NCBI GenBank assembly: GCA_938001915.1
Contig: CALLBD010000054.1
Location: 1 to 50,521, forward strand
Source of the DNA: an uncultured Caulobacterales bacterium
GTDB taxonomy: Bacteria > Pseudomonadota > Alphaproteobacteria > Caulobacterales > Maricaulaceae
Length of the DNA: 50,521 bases
Direction: 5' to 3'
Shown one piece after another: positions 21,298-48,552 of this stretch (within the stretch, counting starts at the first letter, position 1; each line of letters begins with the position of its first letter). Under the pieces are notes generated by a model that saw only the letters and a program-made list of their open reading frames with translations, made no database searches and was not told where the DNA came from. The position numbers and the translations under genes were made by a program.

Positions 21298-21456
21298 AGT
21301 CTCCTAATCAATGGGGCCGCGCGGCCGATTCCAGTTTGGTTAGGTATAGCATAGTGTGGGGTTTGTGAAAGTTTGCTGACTTTTTGTGGGTGGGGTGAAG
21401 CAGCTCCCTCCCCTTTTGACCGTCATCCTCGGGAATCTATGTCGTTACCTAATCCC

Positions 21457-21531
21457 GTCACTCTAGGGCACCGACCCTGGGATCCATCGATGAATTGAAA
21501 AATGGATCCTCGGGTCAAGCCCGAGGATGAC
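21457..21531. repeat. 75-bp composite palindromic repeat, left of GIY-YIG gene 1
   Basis: Two palindromic units back to back with a 14-nt spacer. Unit one (21457-21487): GTCAC, 7-nt arm, CACCGA loop, 7-nt arm, ATCCAT; the arms pair with two G-U wobbles. Unit two (21502-21531): ATGGAT, CCTCGGG, TCAAG loop, CCCGAGG, ATGAC; perfect arms. The same 75-bp layout recurs at 21896-21970. A further truncated unit begins near 21422 (GTCATCCTCGGG). Confidence 0.85.
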
Positions 21532-21556
21532 GGGGTAAGAGAGCAGAAAATCGTCC

Positions 21557-21865
21557 TCAATCATGGTCAAAAATAAACTCACCTGTATTCGGCTCCAAAG
21601 GATGCCACTGCGGATTTGCTGTCTCAATCAACTCAATTTTCCATTGGCGCAACCAGCGCTTGAGAGATTTTTCGCGCTGTATCGCCTCCGCCATGGTCTC
21701 ATGATACTCAAACCAAACCAGACGACGAACATCATATTTAGCCGTAAAACTCTCTGTTTTCGCTTTGGAGTGATGCTCCCATTCTCGCGACGCTAAATCA
21801 GATGTCACGCCAATATAAATCGTGCCATGGCGTTTAGACTCCATCATATAAACACAAGGCTGCAT
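21557..21865 (-). CDS. single-domain GIY-YIG endonuclease-like protein, copy 1
   Basis: A 102-residue protein made of one GIY-YIG domain, as in the YhbQ/UPF0213 group. The first strand reads CVYMMES in place of GIY, followed by GTIYIGVTSDL with the YIG strand. Arg in DLASREWEH is in the catalytic position, and Glu in AEAIQREKSLKRW is the metal ligand. The closing block is WKIELIETANPQW. It is a paralogue of the gene at 44419-44727, sharing SFTxKYxVxRLV and WKIELIE. It sits between two 75-bp composite palindromic repeats in the same orientation, 25 bases from one and 30 from the other. No Shine-Dalgarno precedes ATG 21865. Function may be structure-specific nicking; linkage to the repeats suggests a role in their spread. 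Confidence 0.85.
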   Translation of the reverse strand: MQPCVYMMESKRHGTIYIGVTSDLASREWEHHSKAKTESFTAKYDVRRLVWFEYHETMAEAIQREKSLKRWLRQWKIELIETANPQWHPLEPNTGEFIFDHD

Positions 21866-21895
21866 GGGAGTGAGATAACAGACCTACCTCACCCC

Positions 21896-21970
21896 GTCAC
21901 CCTCGGGCACCGACTCGAGGGTCCATGCCAGCGCCCAGAGATGGATCCTCGGGTCAAGCCCGAGGATGAC
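21896..21970. repeat. 75-bp composite palindromic repeat, right of GIY-YIG gene 1
   Basis: Same order, spacing and orientation as the copy at 21457-21531. Unit one (21896-21926): GTCAC, CCTCGGG, CACCGA loop, CTCGAGG, GTCCAT. A 14-nt spacer of different sequence follows. Unit two (21941-21970): ATGGAT, CCTCGGG, TCAAG, CCCGAGG, ATGAC, identical to its left counterpart. Confidence 0.85.
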
Positions 21971-22018
21971 GAAGAGTAGAATAAATTAGCAAAAATCTCT
22001 GAACCAACACTCAATACC

Positions 22019-42577: not shown

Positions 42578-43510
42578 ATGACTGATTTTGAGGATAATAC
42601 GCCTTTGCGCGAGACGGGTATGGCCCCTGTCACGCTGCTGGGCGCGGCCCTATTTCTTATTCTAATTTGGGGTAGTGCTTTTACCTTAGTCGGCGCAGCC
42701 GTTAGAACCTTATCACCAGAATGGCTGGTCAGTTACCGGATGATTATTGGCGCGGCGCTTATTGTTACCTATAGCCGCCTGATTGGCCATCGCCTGCCGC
42801 CTTTAAAGGATGTACGCTGGTTGTGGTACACAGTTATCGCGATAACAGGCACGAGCTTGCCCTTCCTTCTTTTGGCGACAAGTCAGAAAACCGTTGATAG
42901 CGGGCTGGCGGCAATTCTTGTCGGGACAATGCCGCTTATTACGATTTTACTGGCGCATGTTTTCACGACAGAAAAATTGACGTCGATGAAACTTATTGGG
43001 TTCTTGATTGGCTTTGTAGGTATTGTCATTCTCTTTTTGCCCAAAGATTTGACGTTGTCGCTCGTCTCGGATTGGAAGGCGCAGCTCCTCATTTTGCTCG
43101 GCTCATTTTCCTATGCCGCAACAACCATTATCGCGAGCCGGTCTCCCGATACGCCGTCCCCTCTTGCCGCCGCCATGATGCTTATCATGGGGGCGGGGCT
43201 CTCAACGATATGGGCTGCCCTCACCTCCGGACCGCCCCCCATGCCAGATAAAATCGCGCTCTATGCCACGATTGGACTTGGGTTGGGTTCAACGGGCATC
43301 GCCACAATTACCTATCTTTGGGTTATTGATATGGTCGGACCAAGCGTTTTAGCCCGTATCAATTATTTCGTCCCGGCGTGTTCCGTGGTCCTCGGTGTTA
43401 TCTTTCTGGGAGAAGCTTTGGACTGGCGCATTTTCGTCGCGCTTTTCGTGATTTTCGTTGGTGTGATTATTTCCAATATGGGTAGATCTGCTAAGACGTC
43501 AGGCCTTTAA
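42578..43510 (+). CDS. EamA/DMT-family drug/metabolite transporter
   Basis: A 310-residue inner-membrane protein with ten predicted transmembrane segments in two EamA halves. The first half has ILIWGSAFTLVGAAV (about 28-42) and LSPEWLVSYRMI, the second half SFSYAATTIIASRS and INYFVPACSVVLGVIFLGE near 275. The family exports metabolites or amino acids; the substrate cannot be told. Short upstream region; it converges with thiD, the ends overlapping by 20 bases. Confidence 0.87.
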   Translation: MTDFEDNTPLRETGMAPVTLLGAALFLILIWGSAFTLVGAAVRTLSPEWLVSYRMIIGAALIVTYSRLIGHRLPPLKDVRWLWYTVIAITGTSLPFLLLATSQKTVDSGLAAILVGTMPLITILLAHVFTTEKLTSMKLIGFLIGFVGIVILFLPKDLTLSLVSDWKAQLLILLGSFSYAATTIIASRSPDTPSPLAAAMMLIMGAGLSTIWAALTSGPPPMPDKIALYATIGLGLGSTGIATITYLWVIDMVGPSVLARINYFVPACSVVLGVIFLGEALDWRIFVALFVIFVGVIISNMGRSAKTSGL

Positions 43511-44354
43511 GCGCGGCAAAGGGGTTATTACTTGGCGCGGGATTTTCTTCGGCCTCCCCAATGGCAAGGCCATGATTAAGCGGGCCGTGTCCTTTTGGAC
43601 TGCCAAAACCTGGCGCGGTTCGAATAGCCTCAAAAACAAATTCACGCGCGCGCATGACCGCTTCATCCAGGTCTAATCCTAGCGCCATATTTGCCGCCAC
43701 AGCACTGGCGAGTGTACAGCCTGTTCCGTGGGTGTGGCGCGAACGCAGGCGCGGACCAGACATGATATTGGCCCCTTCCTCACTCACGAGGACATCAACC
43801 ACGGCTTTCCCGTCTAAATGCCCGCCCTTCATCAGCGCCGCATAGACGCCGCGCTCCAACAAGGCATCACCCGCTTTGGTAAGATCATCTACATCGGTGA
43901 TTTTCAGGCCCGTGAGGAGTTCCGCTTCGGGGACATTGGGCGTCACCAAATCCGCGAGCGGCAGGAGTGTATCGCGCAAGGCCGTCACTGCGTCGTCTTC
44001 CAGCAAAGCGTCGCCAGAGGTCGCCACGGCTACGGGGTCCAGAATGACAAAGGCATCCAGCTCATCTACCGCTTCGGCGACAACATCGATAATGGCTTTG
44101 GTGCCCAGCATGCCGATTTTGACGACATCTGCGCCAATATCGGACAGGCAGGCGTCTATCTGTGCCTTGACCAATTCCGCTGGCATCATCTCAACCGCCT
44201 GCACGCCCAGCGTATTCTGCGCCGTCACGGCCGTAATCGCTGTCATGGCATAAGCCCCAAACGCCGAACAGGTTTTAATATCTGCCTGAATGCCCGCCCC
44301 GCCAGAGGAGTCGGAACCCGCGATGATGAGGACACGGCCTTGGGTGTCAGTCAT
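43491..44354 (-). CDS. thiD: Hydroxymethylpyrimidine / phosphomethylpyrimidine kinase
   Basis: A 287-residue ribokinase-fold kinase performing two phosphorylations of HMP to HMP diphosphate in thiamine synthesis. The substrate loop AGSDSSGGAGIQADIKT is at residues 12-28. TAITAVTAQNT and MKGGH are conserved. The anion hole HGTGCTLASA near residue 210 holds the catalytic Asp region. It works after ThiC, encoded elsewhere in the window. No thiE is adjacent. It is followed by a 64-bp gap and then palindromic repeat plus GIY-YIG gene 2 on its 5' side. Confidence 0.95.
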   Translation of the reverse strand: MTDTQGRVLIIAGSDSSGGAGIQADIKTCSAFGAYAMTAITAVTAQNTLGVQAVEMMPAELVKAQIDACLSDIGADVVKIGMLGTKAIIDVVAEAVDELDAFVILDPVAVATSGDALLEDDAVTALRDTLLPLADLVTPNVPEAELLTGLKITDVDDLTKAGDALLERGVYAALMKGGHLDGKAVVDVLVSEEGANIMSGPRLRSRHTHGTGCTLASAVAANMALGLDLDEAVMRAREFVFEAIRTAPGFGSPKGHGPLNHGLAIGEAEENPAPSNNPFAALKGLTS

Positions 44355-44380
44355 TTGGTTTTTCTTTCTAATTTTTCGAT

Positions 44381-44410
44381 GTCATCGTCCGACCTGATCG
44401 GACGATCCAT
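44381..44410. repeat. 30-bp palindromic unit, left of GIY-YIG gene 2
   Basis: GTCAT, CGTCCGA, CCTGA loop, TCGGACG, ATCCAT; the arms are perfectly complementary. This is the reverse orientation of the unit at 44733-44762 and has the same plan as units around GIY-YIG gene 1. It ends eight bases from the gene's stop codon. Confidence 0.88.
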
Positions 44411-44418
44411 GCGATAAT

Positions 44419-44727
44419 TCAAATAAATTCGAAACTGCCTGGATCGATCTCTTTCCACTCTGGATTTAACTTTTCAATAAGTTCGATTTTCCAAGAACGG
44501 TTCCAGCCCTTCAGACGCTTTTCGTAAGCAATAGCCTCGGCAATCAGATCAAAACCTTCTACATAAACTAACCTAAGTACAGAATATTTAGATGTGAAAG
44601 AGTTTGGATGGTAATTGATTTTATTTTGGTGAACCCGCGCCCCAAGGTCGCGCGTCACACCTATATATATCGTTCCGTTTCGACGTGACGCCATGATATA
44701 GACATATGCATATGACACTATAAGCAT
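44419..44727 (-). CDS. single-domain GIY-YIG endonuclease-like protein, copy 2
   Basis: A 102-residue GIY-YIG domain protein. AYVYIMAS replaces GIY; GTIYIGVTRDL carries the YIG strand. Arg in DLGARVHQ and Glu in AEAIAYEKRLKGW are the likely catalytic residues, followed by WKIELIEKLNPEW. It is a clear paralogue of the gene at 21557-21865. It is bounded by inverted palindromic units, eight bases after its stop and five bases before its start. GGAG directly abuts ATG 44727, so GTG 44718 or another start is possible. The unit next to the start may fold over the initiation region and repress translation. Confidence 0.85.
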   Translation of the reverse strand: MLIVSYAYVYIMASRRNGTIYIGVTRDLGARVHQNKINYHPNSFTSKYSVLRLVYVEGFDLIAEAIAYEKRLKGWNRSWKIELIEKLNPEWKEIDPGSFEFI

Positions 44728-44732
44728 CTCCG

Positions 44733-44762
44733 ATGGATTGTCCGATCAGGTCGGACAATGAC
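44733..44762. repeat. 30-bp palindromic unit, right of GIY-YIG gene 2
   Basis: ATGGAT, TGTCCGA, TCAGG loop, TCGGACA, ATGAC. Compared with the unit at 44381-44410 in the same orientation, the outermost pair of the stem is T-A instead of C-G, both sides changed together. Everything else is identical. Confidence 0.88.
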
Positions 44763-44775
44763 AGAGGCAATAGGT

Positions 44776-45591
44776 TCACCCATTCGCCATCGCCTCCCAC
44801 ACCTTCATCGCTTGCACGGTCTCGCTCACATCGTGAACCCTTAGAATATCGGCGCCTGCCTGTGCGGACCAGAGCGCGGCGGCGAGTGAGCCGCCCAAGC
44901 GGTCATCGGCTTCTGAGCCATCGATACGGCCAATAAAGCTCTTACGGCTCGCCCCCATGAGAAGCGGATAACCCATAGCTTTAAATTGCTCGAGATGCTT
45001 TAGGATTGAGAGATTATCCTCCTGCCGTTTCCCAAAGCCAATCCCTGGGTCGAGTGTTATGGCCGAAGGCTCGACGCCCGCGCCGCACACCTTATCAACG
45101 CGGCGTTTCAACCACTCCAGAATATCAGGCACGGCGTCTTCGTAACTCGGATTATCTTGCATATTTTTGGGCTGACCTTGCGCGTGCATGAGAATGACGG
45201 GACAGCCCAAATCGGCCGCGACCTCTGGCGAATTATCATCAAACCCGAGCGCCGAAACATCATTCCAAATATCGGCCCCCACAAACACGGCTCTCTCCGC
45301 AATTTCAGAACGGCGCGTATCAATGGAGATAACGACATCTTCGTCATAATCTTTTGTCGCGGCTCTGATGGCTTTGATGACGGGGATAGTGCGGCGAATT
45401 TCCTCACTCACATCTACGGGCTCTGCGCCTGGACGTGTGCTCTCCCCGCCAATATCAATAATGTCCGCGCCGTCCTCGATCATACGCAGCGCTTGCCGCA
45501 CAGCCAGCTCAGCCGTGTCGAACTTCCCGCCATCAGAAAAACTATCAGGCGTCACATTCAAAATGCCCATGATTTTTGGTCGGTTAAACAT
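44776..45591 (-). CDS. folP: Dihydropteroate synthase
   Basis: A 271-residue TIM-barrel enzyme joining pABA to dihydropterin pyrophosphate in folate synthesis; the sulfonamide target. Conserved blocks: MGILNVTPDSFSDGGKF (9-25), IGGESTRPGAEPV (about 48-60), VISIDTRRSE, DPGIGFGKRQEDN, LLMGASRKSFIGR, and the C-terminal RVHDV. In alphaproteobacteria folP often follows ftsH; here a TonB-like gene lies between them on the other strand, and GIY-YIG gene 2 lies downstream of it. Confidence 0.96.
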   Translation of the reverse strand: MFNRPKIMGILNVTPDSFSDGGKFDTAELAVRQALRMIEDGADIIDIGGESTRPGAEPVDVSEEIRRTIPVIKAIRAATKDYDEDVVISIDTRRSEIAERAVFVGADIWNDVSALGFDDNSPEVAADLGCPVILMHAQGQPKNMQDNPSYEDAVPDILEWLKRRVDKVCGAGVEPSAITLDPGIGFGKRQEDNLSILKHLEQFKAMGYPLLMGASRKSFIGRIDGSEADDRLGGSLAAALWSAQAGADILRVHDVSETVQAMKVWEAMANG

Positions 45592-45670
45592 AGGCCGAAC
45601 TTATGGCCTGCAGATTACATTTCAACCACATGACGGGAGTTTAAGGTGATAGATTGCTTTTCGCGTGAAA

Positions 45671-46540
45671 ATGAACCCCATGGAGCGTGTCGACAAATTA
45701 GGGGGGCGCCCGACTCCCAATGTGAGCAGAAATGTCATCACAGTAATTGTCGTTTTGGGGCTGCACGTCGCCATCTTCTGGAGTTTGAATTACATCCCGC
45801 GAAAACCCCTTAGTCTTCCGCCGCCGCCCATAGCTGTAAAACTTGTTATCCAGAAGCCCATCCCAGAAACCAGAGCCACTCCAGACATAGCTCCGCAATC
45901 CATAAAGCCTGAGCCTGAGCCTGAACCTGAACCTGAACCTGAACCTGAACCAGAACCTGAAATTATACGCGCGCCAAATCCCATCCCCCAAACCCCGCTG
46001 CAGGCTACGCCTCCCCCCGCTCCGCCGCTGCCCACACCGCAGCCTCACTTGACAGACACGCCCATTCCAGATCGGTGGAAATTACCCCCAGGATCTCGCA
46101 TCGCTTTGGATAAGACACGGCCGCCCGTGAACCTGCAACTCGAAGCGCTTTCACAAGCACTGGACTGCCTCGGGTTTGACGAAAATTGCGCGGCCCAGCG
46201 CAAGCTTATTTTTGCCGAGGATCAATTGTCAGGCACGGACCTCGTGTGGATGCCAAGTTTCGCCCATTCGGGCCTAAGCGATTCCGGCCTTTACGGATTA
46301 AGCGAAGCGCAAATTCGCGAGCGTTTAGGCATACCAACAGCGGGACAAAATGGTTTCATGCTTTTACCCGGCATCGGAATTGACGGACCGCTATGGGACG
46401 TGTTGCATGGCGTGAACAGAGCGTGCAAATATAGTGTTGGGGTTGGGGAAGATGGTACGAAAGAGCTGCGGAAACATTGCGGCGATCAAAAATCGTCTTC
46501 CAAAGACCGCATAGGGTTTATTCCCAAGCCCGTAGAGTGA
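45671..46540 (+). CDS. TonB-like membrane-anchored protein without a TonB C-terminal domain
   Basis: A 289-residue protein. One transmembrane helix (about 22-40, VITVIVVLGLHVAIFWSL) is followed by a proline-rich periplasmic rod with nine Pro-Glu dipeptides (about 80-98), then Pro/Thr-rich linker. This is the N-terminal layout of TonB. The C-terminal 140 residues have two to four Cys (LDCLGFDENC, NRACKY, KHCGD) and do not show the TonB fold motif. A role as energy-coupling or envelope spacer is a guess. GTG 45665 is an alternative start. Confidence 0.68.
   Translation: MNPMERVDKLGGRPTPNVSRNVITVIVVLGLHVAIFWSLNYIPRKPLSLPPPPIAVKLVIQKPIPETRATPDIAPQSIKPEPEPEPEPEPEPEPEPEIIRAPNPIPQTPLQATPPPAPPLPTPQPHLTDTPIPDRWKLPPGSRIALDKTRPPVNLQLEALSQALDCLGFDENCAAQRKLIFAEDQLSGTDLVWMPSFAHSGLSDSGLYGLSEAQIRERLGIPTAGQNGFMLLPGIGIDGPLWDVLHGVNRACKYSVGVGEDGTKELRKHCGDQKSSSKDRIGFIPKPVE
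45908..45961 (+). repeat. hexanucleotide coding microsatellite (Pro-Glu)9
   Basis: Nine consecutive copies of CCTGAR (mostly CCTGAA, one CCAGAA) in the TonB-like gene. Unit changes of six bases keep the frame, so the rod length can vary without loss of function. Confidence 0.9.
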
Positions 46541-46626: not shown

Positions 46627-48552
46627 CTACTCAGCAATATCTCTCGCTGTGGCTGCCCCACCAATAGGTTTGGGCTTGCGCGTAGTCGGCACGGCAGGAA
46701 CAGCTGGCTTACCGCCTCCGCCATCAGGACGCTTTGGTTTCGTATCATCTTCCAAGAGCGCTTTGATTTCGTCACCAGAGAGCGTTTCATATTCTAGAAG
46801 CGCTTCGGCGAGTTTCACCCAATCCTTCTTTTTCTTTTTCAGGATTCTTAGAGCTGTCTCATGGGCTTCAGTAATGAAGCGTTTAATCTCGGACTCAATG
46901 AGTTTGGCCGTATCAGGCGAGATAGCAGAGCCGCGTCCGATACCCGGAACGAAAGAGCCATTATCTTGCTGCTTATAGGCGATTGGTCCAATCTCATCGG
47001 ATAGGCCCCATTCCGTCACCATAGCCGTCGCAATGCGCGTGACTTGTTCAATATCCGAACTCGCGCCAGATGTGACCTTATCATAGCCAAAATGTAACTC
47101 CTCCGCAGCCCGGCCGCCCATCGCCATCGCCATGCGGGCAATCATTTCCTGACGGGATTGACTGATTTGGTCACGTTCTGGAAGATACTGAACCATACCA
47201 AGCGCGCGTCCACGGGGAATAATTGTTGCCTTATGGATAGGTAGGCTGCCTTCCATGTTTAGCCCGACAATCGCATGACCCGCTTCGTGATAGGCCGTAT
47301 TCTCACGTTCCTCATCCGTCATTGACAAGGTGCGGCGCTCCGCACCCATGAGAACCTTATCGCGAGCATCCTCAAATTCACGCTGCGTAATTTTCAACTT
47401 ATTGCGACGTGCAGACAGAAGCGCAGCTTCATTGACGAGATTCATCAAATCCGCGCCAGAGAACCCAGGTGTTCCGCGCGCGATATATTTGACCTCAACA
47501 TCAGCGCCGATTGGTTTACCCTTCATATGAACTTCAAGAATTTTCTCACGGCCCTGAATATCAGGGTAAGGCACTTCGATCTGACGATCAAAACGACCTG
47601 GACGTAACAAGGCTTTGTCAAGCACATCAGGACGGTTTGTCGCCGCGATGATGATGATACCTTCATCGCCTTCAAACCCGTCCATCTCAACGAGGAGCTG
47701 GTTCAATGTTTGCTCGCGTTCTTCGTGGCCACCCGACGTACCCACGCCGCGATGACGACCCACGGCGTCAATCTCGTCAATAAAGATGATACATGGGGCT
47801 TGCTTACGAGCTTCGGCAAACATCTCGCGCACGCGCGAGGCGCCAACACCAACAAACATTTCAACAAAATCAGAGCCTGAAATCGTGTAGAACGGCACGC
47901 CCGCTTCTCCCGCAACGGCGCGGGCGAGCAAGGTCTTACCCGTACCTGGAGGGCCCACAAGCAGGGCGCCAGTTGGAATTTTTGCGCCAAGACGCGTGAA
48001 GCGCGTGGGGTCTTTCAAGAACTCAACAACTTCCCGCAAGTCTTCTTTCGCCGCTTCAACGCCCGCAACATCATCAAATGTTTTGCGCTGGCTATTTTCC
48101 GTTAAAAGCTTTGCCTTAGACTTACCAAAGCTCATCGCGCCGCCGCGCCCGCCGCCTTGCATATTTTTGAAGAAGAGGAAGAACAGACCCGCAATAAGAA
48201 GAATCGGTAAAATCGCAATGATGATACTCCCCAAAGCGCTGGGGCGTGTGTTTTCCTCATACTCATAGGGAATATTGGTGCCTTCGAATAAGGCATCGGC
48301 ATTCAGATTGATGGGGCCAATATTCGTCCGATATTTTTCGTCATTTTTCAGCGTCCCGGTAATGACCCCCGCTTCAACGTCAATGTTAGCCGACTTAACA
48401 TTATCTGTCTCAACATGCTTTTGAAGCTCAGAATAGGTAATCTCATTCTTTTCCGCATTATTGAGCGACGGATTACTGGCCGCAAACATCGCCAAAAGAA
48501 GAGCAATCACGATGCCCCAGACAATAAAATTGCGAGTATTGGCGTTTTTCAT
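46627..48552 (-). CDS. ftsH: ATP-dependent zinc metalloprotease FtsH
   Basis: A 641-residue inner-membrane AAA protease that degrades misfolded membrane proteins and regulatory proteins. Two transmembrane helices (about 8-25 and 107-128) flank a periplasmic part. Walker A is [13 protein letters not shown] near 200, Walker [12 protein letters not shown] near 255, the SRH RPGRFDR follows, and the zinc site is HEAGHAI near 423. It lies downstream of cpoB and tilS. A heat-shock-type promoter is visible upstream, and AAGG lies ten bases before ATG 48552. Confidence 0.98.

Follow-up and report, generated by a model that had tools for sequence, protein, structure and literature searches.

A GIY-YIG nuclease gene framed by CGTC-type REP hairpins, a possible partner enzyme of a common bacterial repeat family

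In the window, by which we mean the whole stretch of 50,521 nucleotides that was analysed, a short gene coding for a GIY-YIG nuclease (gene 2) lies between two inverted hairpin units, in the interval separating two genes which we take to be folP and thiD (the names come from the preliminary description and from resemblance). This locus raises the question of what such a nuclease has to do with the hairpins that frame it.

The element between folP and thiD and its nuclease

The preliminary description had placed the gene exactly between the two units, with spacers of 8 and 5 nt, and both points were borne out: arms of 31 nt at 44380-44410 and 44733-44763 enclose the ORF at 44419-44727, leaving gaps of 8 nt (44411-44418) and 5 nt (44728-44732). 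The features of the locus are the following.

44380-44763, minus strand: whole element (REP, GIY-YIG gene 2, REP), 384 bp, between folP and thiD; orthologous element in genomes G047 and G014
44733-44763, minus strand: start-proximal CGTC-type REP unit, TGTC-ATTGTCCGA-CCTGA-TCGGACAAT-CCAT; tag outward, tail gene-ward; E 5e-9 to covariance model R1
44380-44410, plus strand: stop-proximal CGTC-type REP unit, TGTC-ATCGTCCGA-CCTGA-TCGGACGAT-CCAT; tag outward, tail gene-ward; E 2e-9 to model R1
44419-44727, minus strand: GIY-YIG nuclease gene 2, 102 aa from the ATG at 44727; probable start GTG at 44718, 99 aa
44776-45591, minus strand: folP-like gene (presumably dihydropteroate synthase), next gene upstream, co-oriented with gene 2
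43491-44354, minus strand: thiD-like gene, next gene downstream, co-oriented with gene 2

The arms are 94% complementary, stand 322 nt apart and head the inverted-repeat list for the whole window. As single-stranded DNA each of them forms a hairpin whose stem has 9 bp and whose loop has 5 nt; the folding energies are -8.7 to -9.9 kcal/mol, at z scores of -3.7 to -4.1. A chance repeat was ruled out: the 17-nt hairpin core gives four strand hits, that is two sites, in the window at up to 3 mismatches, as compared to a chance expectation of 0.12 hits, and the flank matching at family loci described below exceeds its null. A search of 43400-45700 against Rfam gave no family at E ≤ 1. Translation of gene 2 probably begins with the GTG at 44718-44716, because the orthologue in G047 starts there (MAYAYVY). 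Elsewhere in the window, an ORF with a long Glu-Pro repeat (45665-46540, plus strand), presumably TonB-like from its look, adjoins a large gene (46627-48552, minus strand) which we take to be FtsH-like.

Pfam assigns the protein to PF01541 (GIY-YIG), with E 7e-13 for gene 2 and values of 7e-13 and 5e-15 for the two genes, and neither NCBIfam nor PHROGs gave a family for genes 1 and 2. The AlphaFold2 model has a pLDDT of 92. Its best Foldseek matches in the PDB were UPF0213 BH0048, Slx1 (branched DNA) and the UvrC N-terminal domain, at E 0.003 to 0.3 and none at 0.001; a profile search gave UPF0213 at E 1.4e-8 and UvrC at 0.02, with chance WD-40 matches in between. The protein shares the GIY-YIG fold with UPF0213 and stand-alone GIY-YIG proteins, Slx1, the UvrC N-terminal domain and I-TevI, although UPF0213 is only a distant match in sequence. 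Six residues with catalytic roles in GIY-YIG enzymology are kept almost throughout 92 proteins: Tyr10 (91), Tyr21 (91), Arg31 (92), His35 (90), Glu69 (91) and Asn88 (91). In gene 2 the near-invariant His35 is replaced by Asn, and the two Tyr, Arg, Glu and Asn are kept; the nuclease of the thiD-folP copy may therefore be weakened. At nonsynonymous sites gene 2 differs little from the orthologue in G047 (dN 0.13, NG86), and dS was returned as -1, not computable, as occurs when it is saturated. A tblastn search with one family protein found no phage-borne copies.

The hairpin units as CGTC-tagged REPs

By their sequence, the units of the window fit the layout published for CGTC-tagged REPs, which, in the passages of the survey by Di Nocera et al. 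(2013, PMC3733652) drawn on here, consists of a CGTC or TGTC tag, a stem of 8-9 bp opening with A-T, a loop of 4-5 nt and a tail that is mostly CCA, and which comprises CGTC-1 to CGTC-4, including Neisseria dRS3 and Rickettsia RPE-6/RPE-4. The window units carry an unpaired TGTC tag at one end, as in this superfamily, with a 9-bp stem starting with AT, a 5-nt loop and a CCA tail. The likeness extends to dispersed opposed pairs, of which the own genome holds 15, and to occurrence in alphaproteobacteria and Neisseria. What differs is the enzyme: the survey describes CGTC-REPs as unassociated with transposase genes and apparently without a dedicated transposase, reports no tyrosine transposase gene between CGTC units and does not contain the term GIY (PMC3733652), whereas here a GIY-YIG gene lies inside or between the pairs.

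The tag and tail recur beside GIY-YIG genes in general. Among 246 such units (three samples, two loci counted twice, from a scan that itself requires GTC) the tag was CGTC in 160, TGTC in 81, AGTC in 3 and GGTC in 2, and the tail was CCA in 203. In a hairpin scan that ignored the tag, GTC stood beside the stem in 66/92, 32/34 and 59/71 hairpins near genes, as compared to 3/17, 4/10 and 2/7 in controls. The stem sequence varies and the pairing stays: in the 33 units on which model R1 was built, hand-chosen out of 47, 96.3% of the stem cells are paired, which is partly by construction, as the scan demands a stem, though the diversity of the stems is not; 92 cells were changed on both sides vs. 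25 in shuffles, and such changes occur at 8 of the 9 stem pairs. The tail differs among lineages, being GCTCT or GCGTT in Devosia (L217, L220, L234, L236, L240), CCTT at gene 3 (L003) and CTTG in Novosphingobium (L295), while GTC is constant; the tail may for this reason be part of a lineage-specific recognition.

A second GIY-YIG gene of the window (gene 1) has composites of opposed units on both sides, the degenerate units being judged by eye. The preliminary description had the units at this locus joined by a 14-nt spacer, as we also found upstream of the gene.

21557-21865, minus strand: GIY-YIG gene 1, 102 aa, 53% identical to gene 2
21895-21971, no strand: REPIN-like composite upstream of gene 1, made of unit 21895-21926 (plus, mismatched stem), the 14-nt spacer and unit 21941-21971 (minus)
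21456-21532, no strand: REPIN-like composite downstream of gene 1, made of a degenerate unit at about 21456-21487 (plus, by eye) and unit 21502-21532 (minus)

The own genome (2.6 Mb, 89.65% complete) has a third GIY-YIG copy (gene 3), which is flanked by REP pairs too. Model R1 found at least 42 units in this genome (E ≤ 1), and, judged by their positions, 30 of these make up 15 plus/minus pairs with tails inward, 14-95 nt apart; model R3, for the type with an 8-bp stem, had no match there. Among the dispersed types are that of gene 1, that of gene 3, whose tail is an unusual CTT, and others that flank GIY-YIG genes in related species. Of the 30 own-genome units read by letter, none away from gene 2 was of the gene-2 type.

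Association, stem matching and turnover across genomes

GIY-YIG matches turned up in 116 of the 137 genomes of the window's family, up to nine per genome. We took 92 loci from the longer list, best-scoring first, with some skipped and rows with stops mostly omitted. The CGTC-REP units are concentrated in the first 100 bp beside the genes (44 upstream, at 91 measurable loci, and 46 downstream, at 92), and beyond 500 bp no 100-bp bin holds more than 3. A strict scan of the 92 loci found units on both sides at 32, on one side at 13 and on neither at 47. Disregarding the tag, 92 perfect hairpins lay within 130 bp of the genes vs. 17 in longer control stretches 500-1000 bp off. When the flanks were matched with no motif at all, 72 of 88 loci had matched repeats that exceeded the 95% null, a null which is conservative because it includes real similarity between loci; these were 37 of the 43 loci with REPs and 35 of the 45 without REPs by scan, the other 10 unit-less loci having no matched flanks. 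At several of the unit-less loci with matched flanks, composites some 125-170 bp long are repeated in direct orientation.

The association extends to other bacteria. In other alphaproteobacterial families, REP units lay within 250 bp at 23 of 29 loci, and on both sides at 16 (these 29 are the best-scoring of a class search over 95 genomes, with the own genome's left out). At 52 named loci found with one family protein, which include 7 of the window's family, 2 of these being the same DNA as L099 and L074, REPs were present at 33 and on both sides at 23; outside the window's family the figure was 28 of 45. Among the 19 named loci without units, 10 had a flank match over an arbitrary score. The taxa include Devosia, Limnohabitans, Sideroxydans, Undibacterium, Lutibacter and a Patescibacteria MAG, and single MAG contigs labelled Chloroflexi or Planctomycetes may be binning errors. 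Ten of 34 plasmid records with a GIY-YIG hit were examined, and 7 of the 10 were REP-flanked by scan; by eye, S. meliloti has a CCTC-tagged variant, Planktothrix has other repeats and the R. tumorigenes record has nothing convincing beside the gene. In a N. gonorrhoeae record, a 60%-identical gene sits among 16 dRS3-like units within about 900 bp.

The two units of a locus resemble each other and follow the protein. Over the 32 two-sided loci, the similarity of left and right REPs was 0.87 within loci vs. 0.51 between loci (best of 10,000 permutations, 0.63), and stem and loop were identical on both sides at 13 of the 32 loci, as compared to 3 of 992 mixed pairs. Loci with more similar proteins also have more similar REPs (r 0.307 over 45 loci; best of 2,000 permutations, 0.215), and on the protein tree the types with a 9-bp and with an 8-bp stem each group together, by a test whose shuffles leave near-copies uncorrected. 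At thiD-folP itself the arms have changed together, being of GTCCGA/GTCCGG type in G000 and G047 and of CACCCGA type on both sides in G014.

Genes and REPs also occur in the same genomes. In 289 alphaproteobacterial genomes, searched with either model under strict filters that make the counts lower bounds, REPs were found in at least 74 of 95 genomes with the gene and at least 41 of 194 without it (odds ratio 13, by Fisher tests that ignore phylogeny), and no REP was detected in 21 of the 95. A subset of 137 genomes, about one per family as we infer and thus a partial correction for relatedness, comprised 37 with both, 8 with the gene only, 17 with REPs only and 75 with neither (odds ratio 20).

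Orthologous sites tell how the element behaves over time. At thiD-folP, the whole element is common to G000, G047 and, in another genus, G014, where roughly 570 bp of other sequence separate it from thiD. In G054 a disrupted C-terminal part of the GIY-YIG protein is left there (three stops; 76% identity over 29 residues), together with a CACCCGA-type unit, and G053 retains half a REP unit before thiD. In the remaining members of the genus that were read, the interval holds other sequence or none (in L135-L148 mostly 277-611 nt of differing sequence, which may hold other small genes, with 95 nt in one and none in another). Since the element is also present in G047 and G014, with remnants in G054 and G053, its sequence reads as that of an old, ageing resident that decays in relatives, and not of a fresh insertion. 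The comparison of this interval among relatives, which had been proposed as a check, recovered the whole element and its remnants. Support for the proposal that the gene moves, or originated, together with its repeat ends comes from their joint presence and absence at three other sites.

The first of these follows a gene which we take to be squalene/phytoene-synthase-like: of 14 readable genomes, 4 have gene and REPs and 10 have neither. The element is of one kind in G000, G053 and G056, and G059 carries, at the same spot, one of a different clade with different REPs. That two different elements (L003, 341-1800, vs. L006/L156 of G059) directly follow one and the same gene in congeneric genomes suggests that the site was reused or its element replaced. 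Between sufB and sufC, Azospirillum lipoferum 4B has a REPIN-gene-REPIN arrangement, and five relatives, three of them at 94.7-96.2% identity, have neither gene nor REPs by scan; B510 has another inverted repeat there. At the third site, between fnrL and a response-regulator gene in Sphingobium, the gene is present in 7 of 11 Tom-strain records (6 were read, 2 with and 4 without the gene; the other 5 are carriers by full-length match, and 4 of the 7 carriers are identical).

The Sphingobium site includes a precise empty site. On the TomTYG64 plasmid, a single hairpin tagged at both ends joins exactly the left half of the left unit and the right half of the right unit. TomTYG74 has a degenerate form of this hybrid hairpin; TomTYG72 and TomTYG65 have none. 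Double-tagged hairpins are rare, with one unconvincing case in 647 kb of sequence from genus g18 that contained 147 ordinary units, and L224 and L311 among other loci. A hairpin like that of TomTYG64 is the product expected if the element were lost between the stem sequences that its two units share, whether through cutting or through slippage. Slippage across 8 nt could have produced it without an enzyme, and an insertion into such a hairpin is a possible origin as well. No target-site duplication was seen by eye at the Azospirillum and Sphingobium sites. In genus g18 a REPIN is absent in G118 and present in G129, at about 80% identity and with inexact boundaries. Different-clade GIY-YIG genes also stand beside homologous flanks in different genera (right flanks of L085 and L101; also L058, L089 and L093), hinting at preferred sites.

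The nuclease as a candidate partner of the repeats

We consider it probable that the GIY-YIG endonuclease is the dedicated partner of CGTC-REPs and would cut and mobilise REPs of its own type, the whole being a REP-nuclease unit analogous to a REPtron. REP binding, the position of cleavage, the single-stranded substrate and mobilisation are what we infer. The single-domain enzyme would recognise the folded REP of its own stem type and cut next to the conserved GTC tag, probably on single strands exposed at replication, and this cutting would let the REP-gene-REP unit and the gene-less REP pairs (REPINs) be lost, gained or copied. GIY-YIG enzymes hydrolyse DNA without a covalent intermediate, so that movement would need host repair: the host's repair (or replication) would do the joining and thus complete loss or copying. 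The recurrence of the nuclease-between-hairpins pairing in many other bacteria suggests that the enzyme so far missing for a widespread family of genome repeats is this GIY-YIG nuclease. Against this count the hydrolytic chemistry, which leaves the joining to the host, the lack of a visible target-site duplication, the REPs in 41 of 194 gene-less genomes, the 21 of 95 gene-bearing genomes with no REP detected, the family loci with neither units nor matched flanks, the possible origin of the empty-site hairpin by slippage, and the static state of the present element across two genera. With more doubt than confidence, we extend the reading to a class of GIY-YIG-driven mobile DNA, in which the CGTC-REPs and REPINs of alphaproteobacteria, Neisseria, Bacteroidota and others would be ends and internal-deletion derivatives of REP-GIY-YIG-REP elements, the enzyme co-evolving with its hairpin and spreading via single-strand cuts, without HUH chemistry or a transposase.

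A rather unlikely alternative, yet the strongest of those weighed here, is that the nuclease serves or regulates the host by acting on REPs, in hairpin processing at replication or in limiting DNA uptake, and is kept for this benefit, with the spread of REPs as a by-product. It is favoured by the residence at thiD-folP over two genera, by the low dN to G047, by the fairly fixed distance of the nearest upstream plus units, which end 16-19 nt from the gene start in 13 of 26 cases, and by the gonococcal gene amid dRS3-type units. It also draws on Neisseria Ssn, reportedly a single-domain, site-specific single-strand GIY-YIG nuclease that acts on a repeated sequence. However, patchy presence, up to nine copies per genome, remnants, two elements at one site and joint gain and loss have the look of a mobile element, and a benefit to the host is compatible with a partner enzyme of the REPs and does not exclude it. 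We regard as very unlikely a passive association, in which small genes land at REPs, or REPs attract GIY-YIG insertions (including homing into existing REPINs), with no enzyme-substrate relation: different-clade elements beside the same sequence in different genomes (L003/L100 vs. L006; L085/L101) would agree with it, but gene-less sites have no REP (0 of 10 at the squalene/phytoene-synthase-like site, 0 of 5 in Azospirillum), and left and right stems that match each other and follow the protein are not expected from passive landing.

Less credible still is that RAYT or IS200-type Y1 transposases move CGTC-REPs in trans, with the GIY-YIG gene as a passenger. Y1_Tnp matches do occur in 31 of 115 REP-bearing genomes, but the tie is weak (odds ratios 2.0 in 289 genomes and 2.3 in 137; 1.9, p 0.2, among GIY-negative genomes), and the 2013 survey reported no tyrosine transposase gene with CGTC units at its flanks (PMC3733652). 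The own genome, about 90% complete, has no Y1_Tnp match, and a RAYT as mover in this genome was rejected on that ground. Scarcely to be believed, finally, is that the hairpins are only local expression signals, terminator-like or covering the ribosome-binding site, and unrelated to mobility. An RNA fold can pair upstream bases with GGAG, the hairpin and outside pairs together covering it, but its stability is no better than that of shuffles (z -0.96), and units of the same kind are dispersed as pairs away from GIY-YIG genes in the own genome; the suggestion that folding of the start-proximal unit controls expression thus found no support.

Among the known systems close to the REP-nuclease unit are the REPtrons (TnpA-REP/RAYT with GTAG-REPs), for which the portions of PMC6006769 and PMC8266576 used here describe cleavage of REPs in single-stranded form, next to the hairpin, by a small nuclease, a tag guiding the site. 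Common to both are a small nuclease gene between REPs of its own type, dispersed REPINs and a patchy distribution; the difference lies in the HUH enzyme and GTAG tag there and the GIY-YIG enzyme and CGTC tag here (PMC6006769, PMC8266576, same portions). The family at large, and genes 1 and 3 in the own genome, show an enzyme gene flanked by own-type REPs that are also dispersed; the exact type of gene 2 was not seen elsewhere. The element works like a RAYT REPtron and is not a member: membership was rejected, as the protein is GIY-YIG and not a Y1 HUH tyrosine transposase (PF01797), and the own genome lacks Y1_Tnp.

In a literature search over titles, starts of abstracts and passages, with few subscription papers and no preprints, we found no paper joining GIY-YIG with REP or REPIN; one 2022 paper uses both terms apart. 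Should Ssn prove to act on dRS3, a portion of the proposed mechanism would have been demonstrated before in a single genus, and the novelty of the present case would lie in its generality, its REPtron layout and the co-evolution of enzyme and repeat. CGTC-REPs were reported without a dedicated enzyme in 2013, their spread being left open in the passages used (PMC3733652), and a stem-matched, co-occurring nuclease makes that question directly testable. A partner enzyme of this kind would suggest a role for many short proteins annotated as 'GIY-YIG nuclease family' or 'excinuclease ABC subunit C'. It would also mean that REP/REPIN systems have come about with enzymes of two folds that are unrelated to each other. 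In two Bacteroidetes MAGs (L239, L244) and in Planktothrix (L299), GIY-YIG genes lie between (G)TCATTTCGAACG.../GTCATTCTGAGTG... repeats, possibly a further branch of GTCAT-tagged repeats outside CGTC-1 to CGTC-4.
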